Shown piece by piece: positions 23,705 through 28,273 of a DNA stretch of 64,000 nt. The notes under the pieces were generated by a model, which was given only the letters and a program-made list of their open reading frames with translations, did no database searches and was not told the origin of the DNA. Origin of the DNA: Desulfomonilia bacterium (GTDB taxonomy: Bacteria; Desulfobacterota; Desulfomonilia; UBA1062); the NCBI GenBank assembly GCA_036567785.1, contig DATCTV010000049.1, forward strand, positions 1-64,000, written 5' to 3'. Position numbers and translations under genes: made by a program. Positions within the stretch are counted from its first letter, which is position 1. Each line of letters opens with the position of its first letter.

Positions 23705-24187
23705 CTAAAAATATTGCATTGAGGACTTCTTGAATTCCCGCTTGCTCCAGAAGATTTTATAGTCTCTGAGGCCTGTTTCCTCTGAAATCATGTTTATCAG
23801 ATCTTGAAGTTCCTTTTTTGTTCTCGCATGAATCATTGTGAAGATATTATATGCACCGAAATCAGGACGTTCATAGCAGTGGGTTATGGCCTCATATCCG
23901 GAAAGCTCTTTACCGGCCTCTTCCACCCTTTCCTCTTTAACCGCCCATGTCACGATTGCATTTGCCAGAATGCCGGCCTTCTGATGCCTAAGAATTGCCT
24001 TGAAATCACGGATGATGCCGTTTTCTTTGAACATCTTCAAGCGGTTTATAAGCTCTTCCTGAGATATTCCGAGTTCTGCGGCCCATAAAGCAAAAGGCTC
24101 TTTACATACAGGGAGATCGCCCTGAGCGAGCCTTAATATATCCATATCGATCTTATCCAGCTCTTTCATGGTATGCAATGTAGCCAC
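23705..24187 (-). CDS. Siroheme decarboxylase-like protein (AhbA/AhbB, Lrp/AsnC fold)
   Basis: 160 residues: N-terminal winged helix of AsnC/Lrp type (about 8-60) and a C-terminal RAM-like domain. The sequence THCYERPDFGAYNIFTMIHA and the tail S-K-R-E-F-K-K-S match siroheme decarboxylase subunits AhbA/AhbB rather than amino-acid regulators; these remove acetate side-chain carboxylates from siroheme to give 12,18-didecarboxysiroheme in the alternative heme pathway. AhbA and AhbB normally form a heterodimer, and only one such gene is present here, so the partner must be elsewhere or this is a single-subunit type. Start uncertain: GTG 24187 (longest) or ATG 24169; neither has a strong ribosome-binding site. 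Lies 65 bases after the selenoprotein gene on the same strand. Confidence 0.8.
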   Translation of the reverse strand: MATLHTMKELDKIDMDILRLAQGDLPVCKEPFALWAAELGISQEELINRLKMFKENGIIRDFKAILRHQKAGILANAIVTWAVKEERVEEAGKELSGYEAITHCYERPDFGAYNIFTMIHARTKKELQDLINMISEETGLRDYKIFWSKREFKKSSMQYF

Positions 24188-24252: not shown

Positions 24253-24411
24253 TTATCCTTTAAGCTGCCCTTCTTTCTTTTTGTGATCATCCTTTCTGTC
24301 AACCTGACAGGCACTGCTCATTCATGTCTGAACGCCGAACCTGGGCAGAATAAACACCTGCAGGATAAACCACAGTACTATTATGCCAATAAAAATCAGT
24401 GCTTCACTCAT
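24253..24411 (-). CDS. Small membrane selenoprotein (UGA read as selenocysteine), coupled to trxA
   Basis: Not visible to ordinary gene calling because of an in-frame TGA at 24324-24322. Reading that codon as Sec gives 52 residues: one hydrophobic helix (about 4-22), then I-L-P-R-F-G-V-Q-T-U-M-S-S-A-C at 21-35 and a strongly charged tail to a TAA. Start ATG at 24411 overlaps the trxA stop (ATGA), so translation is coupled to thioredoxin, with AGAGG upstream. Seventeen bases after the UGA, on the mRNA, a hairpin CTGTC-AGGTT-GACAG (24310-24296) presents GG in its apical loop, the layout of bacterial SECIS elements such as that of E. coli fdhF. Sec30 and Cys35 would make a redox pair on the cytoplasmic or periplasmic face, plausibly a thioredoxin partner. 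If the UGA is a real stop the product is a 29-residue peptide. Sec machinery genes are not in this window. Confidence 0.72.
24296..24310 (-). promoter_or_regulatory. Candidate bacterial SECIS hairpin
   Basis: Five-base-pair stem (CTGTC/GACAG) with loop AGGTT; an extra A-U pair would leave a GGU loop. It begins 11 bases after the UGA and its loop G is 18th after it, inside the window generally required for SelB-dependent decoding. The loop GGU resembles that of E. coli fdhF. Confidence 0.6.
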
Positions 24412-24749
24412 GATGACAAGCCTCTCTCAATCATTGCCGAGAGCTGTTCTTTGGGTCTTGATCCCAGCATGGATTCCCTTACCTGTCCTTTGTTGAAAAG
24501 AACAAGCATCGGAATGCTCCTGACTGAATATTCCCGCGATACTGCCGGATTTTCGTCAACATTTACTTTAACGATATTGACCTTACCGCTGTAATCCTTT
24601 GCCAGATCTTCAAGAACCGGGGCTATAGCCCTGCACGGTCCGCACCACGGGGCCCAGAAATCAACCAGTGCAGGCATTTCGGAGTTGATTACCATAGCAT
24701 CGAAGTCACTGTCCGTTGCATGTTTTACAAGGCTTTCTGTTTCCATCAT
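24408..24749 (-). CDS. trxA: Thioredoxin
   Basis: Classical thioredoxin, 113 residues, with active site W-A-P-W-C-G-P-C-R (Cys-Gly-Pro-Cys), the cis-Pro region V-R-S-I-P-M-L and a G-x-x-P-K-E-Q-L tail. Disulfide reductase in the cytoplasm. The frame extends further upstream, but ATG 24749 (second Met follows directly) has AAGGAG at proper distance, so the shorter form is chosen. Its stop overlaps the start of the selenoprotein gene. It is divergent from an arsR gene, with a palindromic operator in the shared region, so thiol stress or metalloid may control both sides. Confidence 0.95.
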   Translation of the reverse strand: MMETESLVKHATDSDFDAMVINSEMPALVDFWAPWCGPCRAIAPVLEDLAKDYSGKVNIVKVNVDENPAVSREYSVRSIPMLVLFNKGQVRESMLGSRPKEQLSAMIERGLSS

Positions 24750-24917: not shown

Positions 24918-24923
24918 ATGTAC

Positions 24924-25241
24924 ATGAAAATTGAACAGGCAAAGATCAAAGCGGAAATATTGAAGGCACTGGCCCACCCTGTGCGCATAATCCTTGTGGA
25001 TGCACTCAGCAGGGGCGACATGTGCGTTTGCGACATGAACACACTGGTGAATGTAGACCAGTCAAATGTATCGCGACATCTCGCTGTTTTAAAGAAGGCC
25101 GGAATAGTGAGCGAACGCAGAGATGGCATGCGGGTTATACATCATCTCGAGACGCCATGCATACTGAATGCAGTCGGCTGTGCTGAAAACGTACTCATGG
25201 AAAGGCTCGCCCGTCAGGCAAAATTAATGAAAAAGGATTGA
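24924..25241 (+). CDS. ArsR family metalloregulator
   Basis: Winged-helix repressor of the ArsR/SmtB family, about 105 residues. It has L-K-A-L-A-H-P-V-R near the start and the alpha-3 metal site C-V-C-D (G-D-M-C-V-C-D-M), which binds As(III)/Sb(III) in classical ArsR, followed by the recognition helix DQSNVSRHLAVLKKAGIV. ATG 24924 is preferred over ATG 24918 because AAGGT lies six bases before it, while 24918 would leave no spacing. It overlaps an operator palindrome and is followed 3 bases later by the ArsP-like permease gene, so it probably represses itself and the permease operon. Confidence 0.9.
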   Translation: MKIEQAKIKAEILKALAHPVRIILVDALSRGDMCVCDMNTLVNVDQSNVSRHLAVLKKAGIVSERRDGMRVIHHLETPCILNAVGCAENVLMERLARQAKLMKKD

Positions 25242-25244
25242 TAT

Positions 25245-26618
25245 ATGAATAAAGAACTTAAAATACTTTTGTACCTGATAGCGGCCTTTGCAATAATTTT
25301 CTTTCTGCCTGTAGATTCCCTGCGTTTTCAGGGCGCCGTAATCGAAGCTTTCAGACTTCTCAGATGGTATGCCAGGGAGCACGTACTTTTATGTCTGGTG
25401 CCAGCCTTTTTCATAGCAGGAGCAATCGGTGTGTTCATTTCGCAGGCGTCGGTCATGAAATACTTCGGGCCTACAGCCAAGAAATGGCTTTCATATTCTG
25501 TTGCTTCGGTATCCGGAACAGTGCTTGCGGTGTGCTCCTGCACGGTGCTTCCTCTTTTCGGCGGCATATACATGCGCGGCGCAGGCCTTGGTCCAGCCAT
25601 AGCCTTTTTGTATTCCGGCCCTGCAATAAATGTTCTGGCAATCGTGCTTACCGCCAGAGTCATCGGCTGGGAAATGGGGCTGGCACGAGCAATAGGAGCT
25701 GTCTTGTTCAGTATTGTCATAGGGCTTTTGATGCACTTTATTTTTATCAAGGAAGAGCGCGCCAAGGTTCAGGCGGCAGGTGAAGTCTATTACGGCGATG
25801 ATATAGAAAACGAAAGACCGCTCTGGCAGACCGTGCTGTTCTTCTTTTCCATGATAGGGATACTGGTCTTTGCCAACTGGGGCAGACCGGTTGAGACAAC
25901 TGGAATATGGCACGCAATCTTCTCGGCAAAATGGGTTGTTACAGCATTATTCGGCATCATGTTCGCAGCCGTGTTGTGGCGTTTTTTCAAGGTTAAATTT
26001 CTCTATCTGTTAATCGGCGCAGTTGCAACCGCCGCCATGACATTCGTCATGCCCGGCATGCCTTCTATGGCCGTCACGGCAGGAGTCATTGCACTTTCAA
26101 TAATTACTTTTTATTCCGGTTCGGAAATGACCGACTGGAGAGAACAGACATGGGGGTTTGCAAAACAGATAACGCCTCTGCTTTTCGGGGGCGTTCTTGT
26201 AGCAGGATTTCTTCTTGGAAGTCCTGAATCCAAGGATGCAGGAATAATCCCAAGCATCTGGATTCAGGCCTTTGTCGGTAATACGCCCGAGGCTTTCATG
26301 TCACTTACGGGTATGATTGGTGAAGCTCCTGCCTGGCTTAATCTGATATGGCCGGTGTGGACTAACTTTTTCGCTTCACTTTCAGGTGCATTGATGTATT
26401 TTGCAACGCTTACCGAAGTGCCGATAGTAAGAGGGCTTATCGACAGCGGCATGGGACAGGGCCCTGCACTCGCGCTGCTGCTTGCCGGACCGGCGCTGTC
26501 TCTTCCCAGCATGCTGGTTATAAACAGTGTGATCGGCCCCAGGAAGACACTTGTTTATATAATTCTGGTTGTAATTATGGCGACAATATCAGGGATGGTC
26601 TACGGAGCAATCGTTTAA
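25245..26618 (+). CDS. Predicted permease of the DUF318/ArsP type
   Basis: Integral membrane protein of 457 residues with about ten hydrophobic segments. The conserved V-C-S-C-T-V-L-P-L-F-G-G motif (about 97-108) and the matching second-half motif G-P-A-L-S-L-P-S-M identify the DUF318/ArsP permease family, whose studied members export trivalent organoarsenicals. The Cys pair in the first motif could ligate a thiophilic metalloid. The gene directly follows arsR (AAGGA ribosome-binding site) and precedes two thioredoxin-like genes, an arrangement common for these permeases. Exact substrate unknown. Confidence 0.85.
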   Translation: MNKELKILLYLIAAFAIIFFLPVDSLRFQGAVIEAFRLLRWYAREHVLLCLVPAFFIAGAIGVFISQASVMKYFGPTAKKWLSYSVASVSGTVLAVCSCTVLPLFGGIYMRGAGLGPAIAFLYSGPAINVLAIVLTARVIGWEMGLARAIGAVLFSIVIGLLMHFIFIKEERAKVQAAGEVYYGDDIENERPLWQTVLFFFSMIGILVFANWGRPVETTGIWHAIFSAKWVVTALFGIMFAAVLWRFFKVKFLYLLIGAVATAAMTFVMPGMPSMAVTAGVIALSIITFYSGSEMTDWREQTWGFAKQITPLLFGGVLVAGFLLGSPESKDAGIIPSIWIQAFVGNTPEAFMSLTGMIGEAPAWLNLIWPVWTNFFASLSGALMYFATLTEVPIVRGLIDSGMGQGPALALLLAGPALSLPSMLVINSVIGPRKTLVYIILVVIMATISGMVYGAIV

Positions 26619-26640
26619 AAAACTATTCGGAGGAATTTTT

Positions 26641-26874
26641 ATGAAAAAGATACAGATACTCGGAACAGGGTGCCCGAAATGCAACATGCTCAAGGCAAAT
26701 GCCGAAACAGCAATCAAGGAGCTTGGAATTGATGCAGAGATCGAAAAGATTTCAGATATTAAAGAAATCATGAATTTCGGTGTAATGAGCACGCCCGCCA
26801 TAGCAATAGACGGTAAGGTCATCAGCGCGGGCAAGGTTTTAAAGCCGGAAGATATAAAAAAACATCTAAGCTGA
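26641..26874 (+). CDS. Small thioredoxin-like redox-active disulfide protein
   Basis: 77 residues, thioredoxin/glutaredoxin fold with active site G-C-P-K-C-N near the N-terminus and a cis-Pro stretch V-M-S-T-P-A-I-A-I-D. Belongs to the family annotated as redox-active disulfide protein 2, often encoded next to DUF318 permeases. GGAGG at 26630 sets the start. It may deliver reducing power or hand over the metalloid to the permease upstream (inference). Confidence 0.9.
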   Translation: MKKIQILGTGCPKCNMLKANAETAIKELGIDAEIEKISDIKEIMNFGVMSTPAIAIDGKVISAGKVLKPEDIKKHLS

Positions 26875-26922
26875 ATGTCTTAAATTTATTCATCTTACAT
26901 GCTTTTCATAAAGGAGAAAATT

Positions 26923-27342
26923 ATGAGAAAATATTTATTGCTGCTGGTTGCTTTTGCATTTGTCTTTTGTCCTGTCCTTGCTGATGCAGCCGCTAAGGCA
27001 GATACAAAATACATCGTGTATTATTTCCGCACTACAGGCCGCTGCCATTCATGCATCCAGATGGAGAAGATGACAAAAGAGACCATTGAGAAGGATTTTG
27101 CAAAAGAGGTTAAAAGCGGCCTTGTTGAATTCCGCTCGGTCGATGTTGAGACTCCTCAAAATAAGCATTACATAAAAGATTACGGGCTTTACACAAAATC
27201 AGTCATTATTTCCGAAGTAAAAAACGGCAAGGAAACCCGCTGGAAGAACCTGGATCAGATATGGAAAAAATTAAGGAATGAATATGAATTCAGGCTCTAT
27301 ATCTCTGATGAATTAAGACAGTTTATGAAAGGCGCTAAATAG
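26923..27342 (+). CDS. Exported thioredoxin-fold protein of the ArsF type
   Basis: 139 residues with a signal peptide (MRKYLLLLVAFAFVFCPVLA) and a C-x2-C site in T-G-R-C-H-S-C-I-Q. The pattern fits proteins named nitrophenyl compound nitroreductase subunit ArsF, which lie beside ArsG-like permeases in arsenical-resistance clusters. It probably acts in the periplasm as a thiol-redox partner. ATG 26923 follows AAGGAG; a longer frame lacks a ribosome-binding site. Stop is immediately followed by the permease start. Confidence 0.8.
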   Translation: MRKYLLLLVAFAFVFCPVLADAAAKADTKYIVYYFRTTGRCHSCIQMEKMTKETIEKDFAKEVKSGLVEFRSVDVETPQNKHYIKDYGLYTKSVIISEVKNGKETRWKNLDQIWKKLRNEYEFRLYISDELRQFMKGAK

Positions 27343-28023
27343 ATGACGTTGCTGGATATCTGGGCAGCCATGTGGCTGGGGATACTCACTTCCATCAGCC
27401 CCTGCCCTCTTGCAACCAACATTGCGGCCATTTCCTACATAGGCAAGGACATGACATCTCACATGAAGGTGTTCGTCTCCGGCATCGCCTATACAACAGG
27501 AAGGGTCTTTGCCTATGCGGCTGTGGGCGTTATGTTGAGCGCCGGGCTTTCATCCGTGCCGGATGTCGCCAACTTCCTTCAAAGATATATGAACGCCATT
27601 TTAGGCCCCATGCTTTTCATAACAGGCATATTCCTGTTCGGTTTTATCAATATCAGCCTGCCGGGAATAAACGCCGACAGGTTTAAAAAACTTGCAGGAA
27701 AAGGCATGGTTACAGGGCCGTTCCTTCTTGGGATAATTTTTTCACTTGCATTCTGCCCGGTTTCAGCGGCTCTGTTTTTCGGCAGCCTCATACCGCTTGC
27801 GCTTTCAGTGAAATCGCCGGTCATGTTTCCGTCATTATATGGTTTCGGAACCGGTCTGCCTGTCATCCTTTTTGCCTTCCTCATCGCTTTCGGTATGCAT
27901 TCGCTTGGCAGTTTCTTCAAAGGAATCACCCGTTTTGAAAAATGGGCGAGATACGCAACCGGAATAATTTTTGTGCTGGTCGGCGGATACTATGCCCTCA
28001 TCTACACATTTAAAATAATCTAG
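27343..28023 (+). CDS. CcdA/DsbD-like six-TM protein of the ArsG type
   Basis: 226 residues, about six transmembrane helices, with S-I-S-P-C-P-L-A-T-N in the first and L-A-F-C-P-V-S-A-A in the fourth: the paired Cys-Pro motifs of CcdA/DsbD electron carriers. The neighbourhood and pattern fit the permease family called ArsG (aminobenzylarsenical efflux). Either role, moving electrons to ArsF in the periplasm or exporting arsenicals, is possible; the paired cysteines favour electron transfer. Starts with no gap after the ArsF-type gene. Confidence 0.82.
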   Translation: MTLLDIWAAMWLGILTSISPCPLATNIAAISYIGKDMTSHMKVFVSGIAYTTGRVFAYAAVGVMLSAGLSSVPDVANFLQRYMNAILGPMLFITGIFLFGFINISLPGINADRFKKLAGKGMVTGPFLLGIIFSLAFCPVSAALFFGSLIPLALSVKSPVMFPSLYGFGTGLPVILFAFLIAFGMHSLGSFFKGITRFEKWARYATGIIFVLVGGYYALIYTFKII

Positions 28024-28033
28024 AAAGAGAAGT

Positions 28034-28273
28034 ATGAAGATGAAAAAGATTGAGATTATCGGTCCGGGGTGCCCCTTCTGCAAAACTCTGTATAAAAGGG
28101 TTGAAGAAGTCGTAATGGAAAACGGAATCGAGGCTCAGGTCGAGCATATTAAGGATTTCAGCGCATTTATCAAATATTTTCCCAGAACCCCGGTTTTAAA
28201 GATGGACGGCCAGGTTCTGCATAATGGCAAAATCCTTCCGGACAAGGCGAAGATAAAAAACATGCTGGTCTGA
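28034..28273 (+). CDS. Second small thioredoxin-like protein
   Basis: 79 residues, thioredoxin-like, active site G-C-P-F-C-K and cis-Pro region F-P-R-T-P-V-L-K-M-D. Similar in size and layout to the protein at 26641 but clearly divergent, so probably specialised for the ArsG-type membrane protein whose gene ends 10 bases upstream. ATG 28034 or 28040 are both possible; AGAGAAG precedes the first. Confidence 0.88.
   Translation: MKMKKIEIIGPGCPFCKTLYKRVEEVVMENGIEAQVEHIKDFSAFIKYFPRTPVLKMDGQVLHNGKILPDKAKIKNMLV

Follow-up and report, generated by a model that had tools for sequence, protein, structure and literature searches.

Does the short minus-strand frame directly downstream of trxA in the stretch of DNA analyzed here (the window, 64,000 nucleotides) end at its TGA codon, or is that TGA read as selenocysteine (Sec)? 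Gene callers see only 29 codons at this locus. Translated with TGA as U, the frame reads MSEALIFIGIIVLWFILQVFILPRFGVQT-U-MSSACQVDRKDDHKKKEGQLKG, a product in which a single membrane helix is followed by LPRFGVQT-U-MSSAC and a lysine-rich tail (Table 1). A sequence-only reading of the window had proposed a hidden small membrane selenoprotein coupled to thioredoxin. Translation reproduced its coordinates and its 52-residue read-through protein, and the overlap of the selenoprotein start codon with the trxA stop codon (ATGA) was likewise found in the sequence. An AhbB-like siroheme decarboxylase subunit is encoded downstream of the selenoprotein gene (window 23705-24187, minus strand).

Table 1. 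Positions of features at the selenoprotein locus, numbered within the window
Feature	Position	Strand	Details and basis
trxA (thioredoxin), upstream gene	24408-24749	-	TIGR01068, 121.8 bits, above cut-off
Purine-rich GAGAGAGG 5′ of start, possible ribosome binding site	24421-24428	-	Inside trxA 3′ end; suggested by sequence
Selenoprotein gene	24253-24411	-	52 codons including Sec-UGA; stop TAA at 24255-24253; translation with TGA as U, homologues with same TGA
Predicted transmembrane helix, residues 2-24	24340-24408	-	AlphaFold2; hydrophobic; W14 at least 90% conserved
Sec-UGA codon, residue 30	24322-24324	-	Codon comparison across family loci (see text)
Conserved Cys codon, U+5 (Cys35)	24307-24309	-	Proposed resolving partner of Sec
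SECIS hairpin CUGUCA-GGU-UGACAG	24296-24310	-	Fold; family-wide loop G; covariation

A family of relatives

A first search returned four relatives, three with TGA at the Sec position (one from a Deltaproteobacteria MAG and two from Nitrospirota) and one, L003, with Cys. A profile of these first relatives matched 165 of the 395 genomes of the window's phylum (42%), spread over 112 of 246 genera, and a larger profile of 73 members (A2) matched 31 of 41 close relatives. Among Nitrospirota, A2 gave matches in 45 of 198 genomes, about 42 of which were convincing (about a fifth of the genomes). In the phylum of L003 there were matches in 7 of 241 genomes, and only that of L003 itself and that of L156, a plausible TGA-bearing member, look real; on inspection, the other five look like chance. 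No relatives were found among plasmids and viral contigs. Some genomes carry two family copies (L067, L081, L108, L112, and L124, all of one genus, and G153). The shared pattern is a transmembrane helix, [LF]P[KR]xG[VI]xT-U-xxxx-C, and a basic tail.

The sequence-only reading had also called for homologues with Cys at position 30, and a single one was found: L003 (LPKFGVQTCMSCCC, L003:2998-3186), from a selB-positive Verrucomicrobia MAG. Its contig is 5.6 kb long, so mis-binning is possible. Since U was passed to the profile searches as C, Cys forms could be found at least as easily as Sec forms; other Cys forms were strikingly absent from the searches of the window's phylum, the close relatives, Nitrospirota, and the phylum of L003.

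Conservation at and beyond the UGA

Detailed reading of 134 loci gave TGA as the Sec codon in 133, the sole exception being the TGC (Cys) of L003. Terminal stop codons of the same 134 genes were mixed (TAA in 51, TGA in 42, TAG in 41), which argues that an ordinary stop would not have stayed TGA throughout. Relative to U, the proline at -7 and the glycine at -4 were invariant among the 133 TGA-bearing members, and the threonine at -1 was present in 131. Exactly one Cys follows U in 124 of 133 and none precedes it in 128; the Cys lies at U+5 in 112 and at U+6 in 11, and in five members U is followed by no Cys. In L034, L042, L085, L107, L123, L133, and L145 the Cys is far downstream or missing (e.g., GVKTULxPxNRQ), and these loci may form a subfamily with different chemistry.

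The reading frame past the TGA was compared between relatives, in 37 independent pairs. The share of changes falling on third codon positions was 62% before the UGA, 46% after it (P = 7e-6; a stretch of 13 codons), and 34% beyond the final stop. Judged from these codon statistics and from the conserved residues, the frame downstream of the TGA is under coding constraint. Homologues that stop at the TGA, or a downstream frame lacking conservation, would have spoken against the earlier proposal; instead, the homologues read through, with Cys in the one exception, and conservation extends past the TGA in codons and residues alike.

The same reading had placed a stem-loop 17 bases past the UGA, and this is where the apical loop of the window hairpin begins; the 6-bp stem starts at 11 nucleotides, and the loop is GGU, with G first. 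Folded as a single sequence, this hairpin (minimum free energy [MFE], -6.5 kcal/mol; z about -0.8) was no better than shuffled sequences and lies above the bSECIS criterion of an MFE of ≤-7.5 kcal/mol (PMC13188914, Fig. 2). No SECIS match came from Rfam, whether the whole window or the local stretch was scanned. The single-sequence case is thus weak, and the evidence beyond chance is comparative, coming from codon, frame, and covariation.

Across the family, the mean hairpin MFE was -10.1 kcal/mol, and 99 of 134 members passed a joint test with a loop start of 14 to 26. An initial hairpin filter, passed by 55 of 134, was too strict, and a survey of loops was used in its place. G occupied one of the first two loop positions in 131 of 134 hairpins, versus 51 to 60 of 134 in control coding windows (about 40%); the three hairpins without it belong to L003, the only Cys-coding gene, and to L076 and L080. 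Structure after the UGA exceeded that of dinucleotide shuffles (mean z, -1.65, versus -0.54 to +0.23 for control stretches) and of synonymous-codon randomizations (mean z, -1.86, versus -0.31 upstream). The largest hairpin class comprises 40 sequences; changes on both sides were seen at six of its seven pairs, and 98.2% of cells pair. Its covariation score of 0.805 fell to 0.265 on shuffling and to no more than 0.206 on sliding the partner. Because this class was picked by folding, it is biased towards pairing; the variety of pair types and the outcome of the sliding control nevertheless speak for a genuine stem.

If the UGA were an ordinary stop, the product would be a 29-residue peptide and read-through a matter of chance. 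Twenty-nine codons is a common size for small open reading frames, and the window hairpin on its own does not distinguish itself from shuffles. Such a stop is nevertheless highly improbable, given a TGA that persists where true stops vary, a lone replacement that is Cys, and a frame, a U+5 Cys, and a hairpin that are all conserved downstream; short of protein evidence, the conservation data refute it.

The source genome, 97% complete, contains selA (500 bits), selB (359 bits; cut-off, 242), selD (378 bits; G000:C27:68217-69131, itself carrying a single in-frame TGA), and tRNA-Sec (66.5 bits; cut-off, 47). The absence of selB or selC, which would have counted against the earlier proposal, was therefore not observed. 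Within the window's phylum, selB scored above the cut-off in 353 of 395 genomes, and presence of the family tracked it: members occurred in 156 of 353 genomes with selB and in 9 of 42 without (Fisher P = 0.003; listings compared by hand). For most of the nine exceptions, other genomes of the genus or family are selB positive, which makes assembly gaps the likely reason for the missing selB. Decoding of the UGA as Trp, or read-through without selenium, has next to no probability, as no point in its support was found and the complete Sec machinery, the SECIS-type hairpin, the Cys of the one exception, and the tracking of selB all stand against it.

On this comparative evidence, we regard it as almost certain that the locus encodes a genuine selenoprotein, its in-frame UGA and bacterial SECIS hairpin directing insertion of Sec30. 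The proposal of a hidden small membrane selenoprotein was strongly supported by the sel genes, the conserved TGA, and the conserved downstream frame.

Membrane anatomy, gene neighborhood, and possible roles

AlphaFold2, run with 73 family members, gave one confident helix and disorder beyond it. Averages for the tail were 5.2 K/R and 3.7 D/E, compared with 0.4 K/R for the first six residues. By the positive-inside rule, the N terminus would be outside and the basic tail inside, with Sec facing the cytoplasm at the membrane surface. Taken jointly, the selenoprotein family identification and this membrane anatomy are very probably correct, a judgment that excludes the redox mechanism considered below.

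The conserved Sec and single Cys fit a redox role. In the mechanism that we propose, Sec would attack a substrate or become oxidized, and the downstream Cys would resolve it as a reversible selenenylsulfide, so that the protein would work as a selenol/thiol redox element anchored in the membrane. We see even chances that the family acts as such a cytoplasm-facing Sec/Cys element at the membrane surface. In the clade of the window, the co-transcribed cytosolic thioredoxin would be the most likely reductant to regenerate the Sec protein, and we put it forward tentatively as a direct partner there.

The coupling to thioredoxin that was claimed from the window alone held in part. trxA lies directly upstream of the gene in the window, in the same-family relatives G069, G348, and G844, and in four genomes of one other family (f32); in L150 it is the next gene downstream. 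Adjacency to trxA thus extends to about eight genomes besides that of the window. Most members have other neighbors, and a family-wide thioredoxin link was rejected. Recurrent neighbors elsewhere include FmdB zinc ribbon proteins (16 loci), ArsR regulators (9 loci), and CcdA/DsbD-type carriers (9 loci); TlpA-like genes also recur, and MobB, gltX, and others add to the variety. In Nitrospirota (L162 to L181), an rplQ (ribosomal protein L17) frame lies directly upstream in nearly all loci read, mostly within 8 nucleotides and behind rpoA; one locus (L178) follows secG. The rplQ context does not point to any specific redox pathway. We give somewhat less than even probability to an uncatalogued, ancient, and essentially Sec-obligate membrane family with a housekeeping role (in Nitrospirota, within the alpha ribosomal-protein operon) and a membrane-surface chemistry closed to cysteine.

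A genuine selenoprotein with this anatomy could instead serve a membrane complex as a small accessory subunit or as an adaptor, with Sec as a local nucleophile, by analogy with eukaryotic SelK/SelS or with the small subunits of membrane machines. The single helix and disordered basic tail would suit such a part, and rplQ and secG suggest housekeeping near translation or membrane insertion; we consider it rather unlikely, as neighbors vary widely and no membrane-complex partner recurs across the family.

The gene neighborhood in the window itself raises a different prospect, that the Sec/Cys pair serves at the membrane as a binding site for a metal, metalloid, or soft ligand, such as arsenic, mercury, or copper, with no electron relay. 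Divergent to trxA (window 24918-28023, plus strand) lie genes for an ArsR regulator, a permease (weakly SaoE/SO_0444-like), an ArsE-type thioredoxin-like protein, an ArsF family protein, and an ArsG family transporter, with a second ArsE-like gene at 28034-28273. Several of the nine ArsR-type neighbors across the family overlap the gene as ATGA, and MerR regulators lie upstream in three loci. Ligand binding is nonetheless unlikely, since most members lack metal-linked neighbors, the Nitrospirota gene sits in a ribosomal-protein operon, and Sec and Cys are separated by four residues, with no further conserved Cys ligands. The redox element remains our preferred reading.

Novelty and relation to known selenoproteins

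NCBIfam and Pfam models gave no convincing match for any of the 73 members; Pfam matches to ATP synthase subunit 8/b and to arabinosyltransferase were weak and hydrophobic and were attributed to transmembrane composition. No relative was found in the PDB, and a 2026 list of 119 selenoprotein families and subfamilies (PMC13188914) contains no corresponding motif or name. Three new hypothetical families (DG, DW, and DF) all have Cys homologues (PMC12013277). These carry NCBIfam model numbers (PMC13188914), and no NCBIfam model matched the present family. The family thus appears to be absent from the catalogues searched (NCBIfam, Pfam, and the 119-entry list), and an earlier mention elsewhere is possible. 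Its tiny size and its lack of Cys homologues are probably why it was missed.

The locus adds a widespread selenoprotein family, present in 42% of the genomes sampled from one phylum and in about a fifth of those from another. Common methods are blind to it: gene callers stop after the first 29 codons, and selenoprotein finders depend on Cys homologues. Selenoproteins without such homologues may escape deep-Sep, as its authors themselves state (PMC12013277). The finding suggests that further tiny Sec-obligate proteins are still hidden, and the near-absence of Sec-to-Cys replacement makes the question of what Sec can do that Cys cannot directly testable.

With catalogued bacterial selenoproteins the family shares an in-frame UGA, a downstream bSECIS, Sec near a Cys, and a presumed redox role; unlike them, it is almost without Cys homologues and is a single-pass protein of about 52 residues. 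Thiol/selenol redox chemistry would also be common ground with thioredoxin-fold selenoproteins, including selenoprotein thioredoxins, and a thioredoxin gene adjoins the locus here; the AlphaFold2 model, one helix with the remainder disordered, is not a thioredoxin fold. GrdA (glycine reductase selenoprotein A) resembles the present family in that its Sec is nearly obligate; GrdA is a soluble protein with a CxxU motif and part of the glycine reductase complex, and the two are unrelated in sequence. The eukaryotic SelK and SelS are likewise small selenoproteins that cross the membrane once and carry Sec outside it, in a basic tail that is disordered. The likeness to them is one of architecture, and the new family differs in that its Sec follows the helix immediately, within an LPxxGxxTU motif, and has a Cys at +5.
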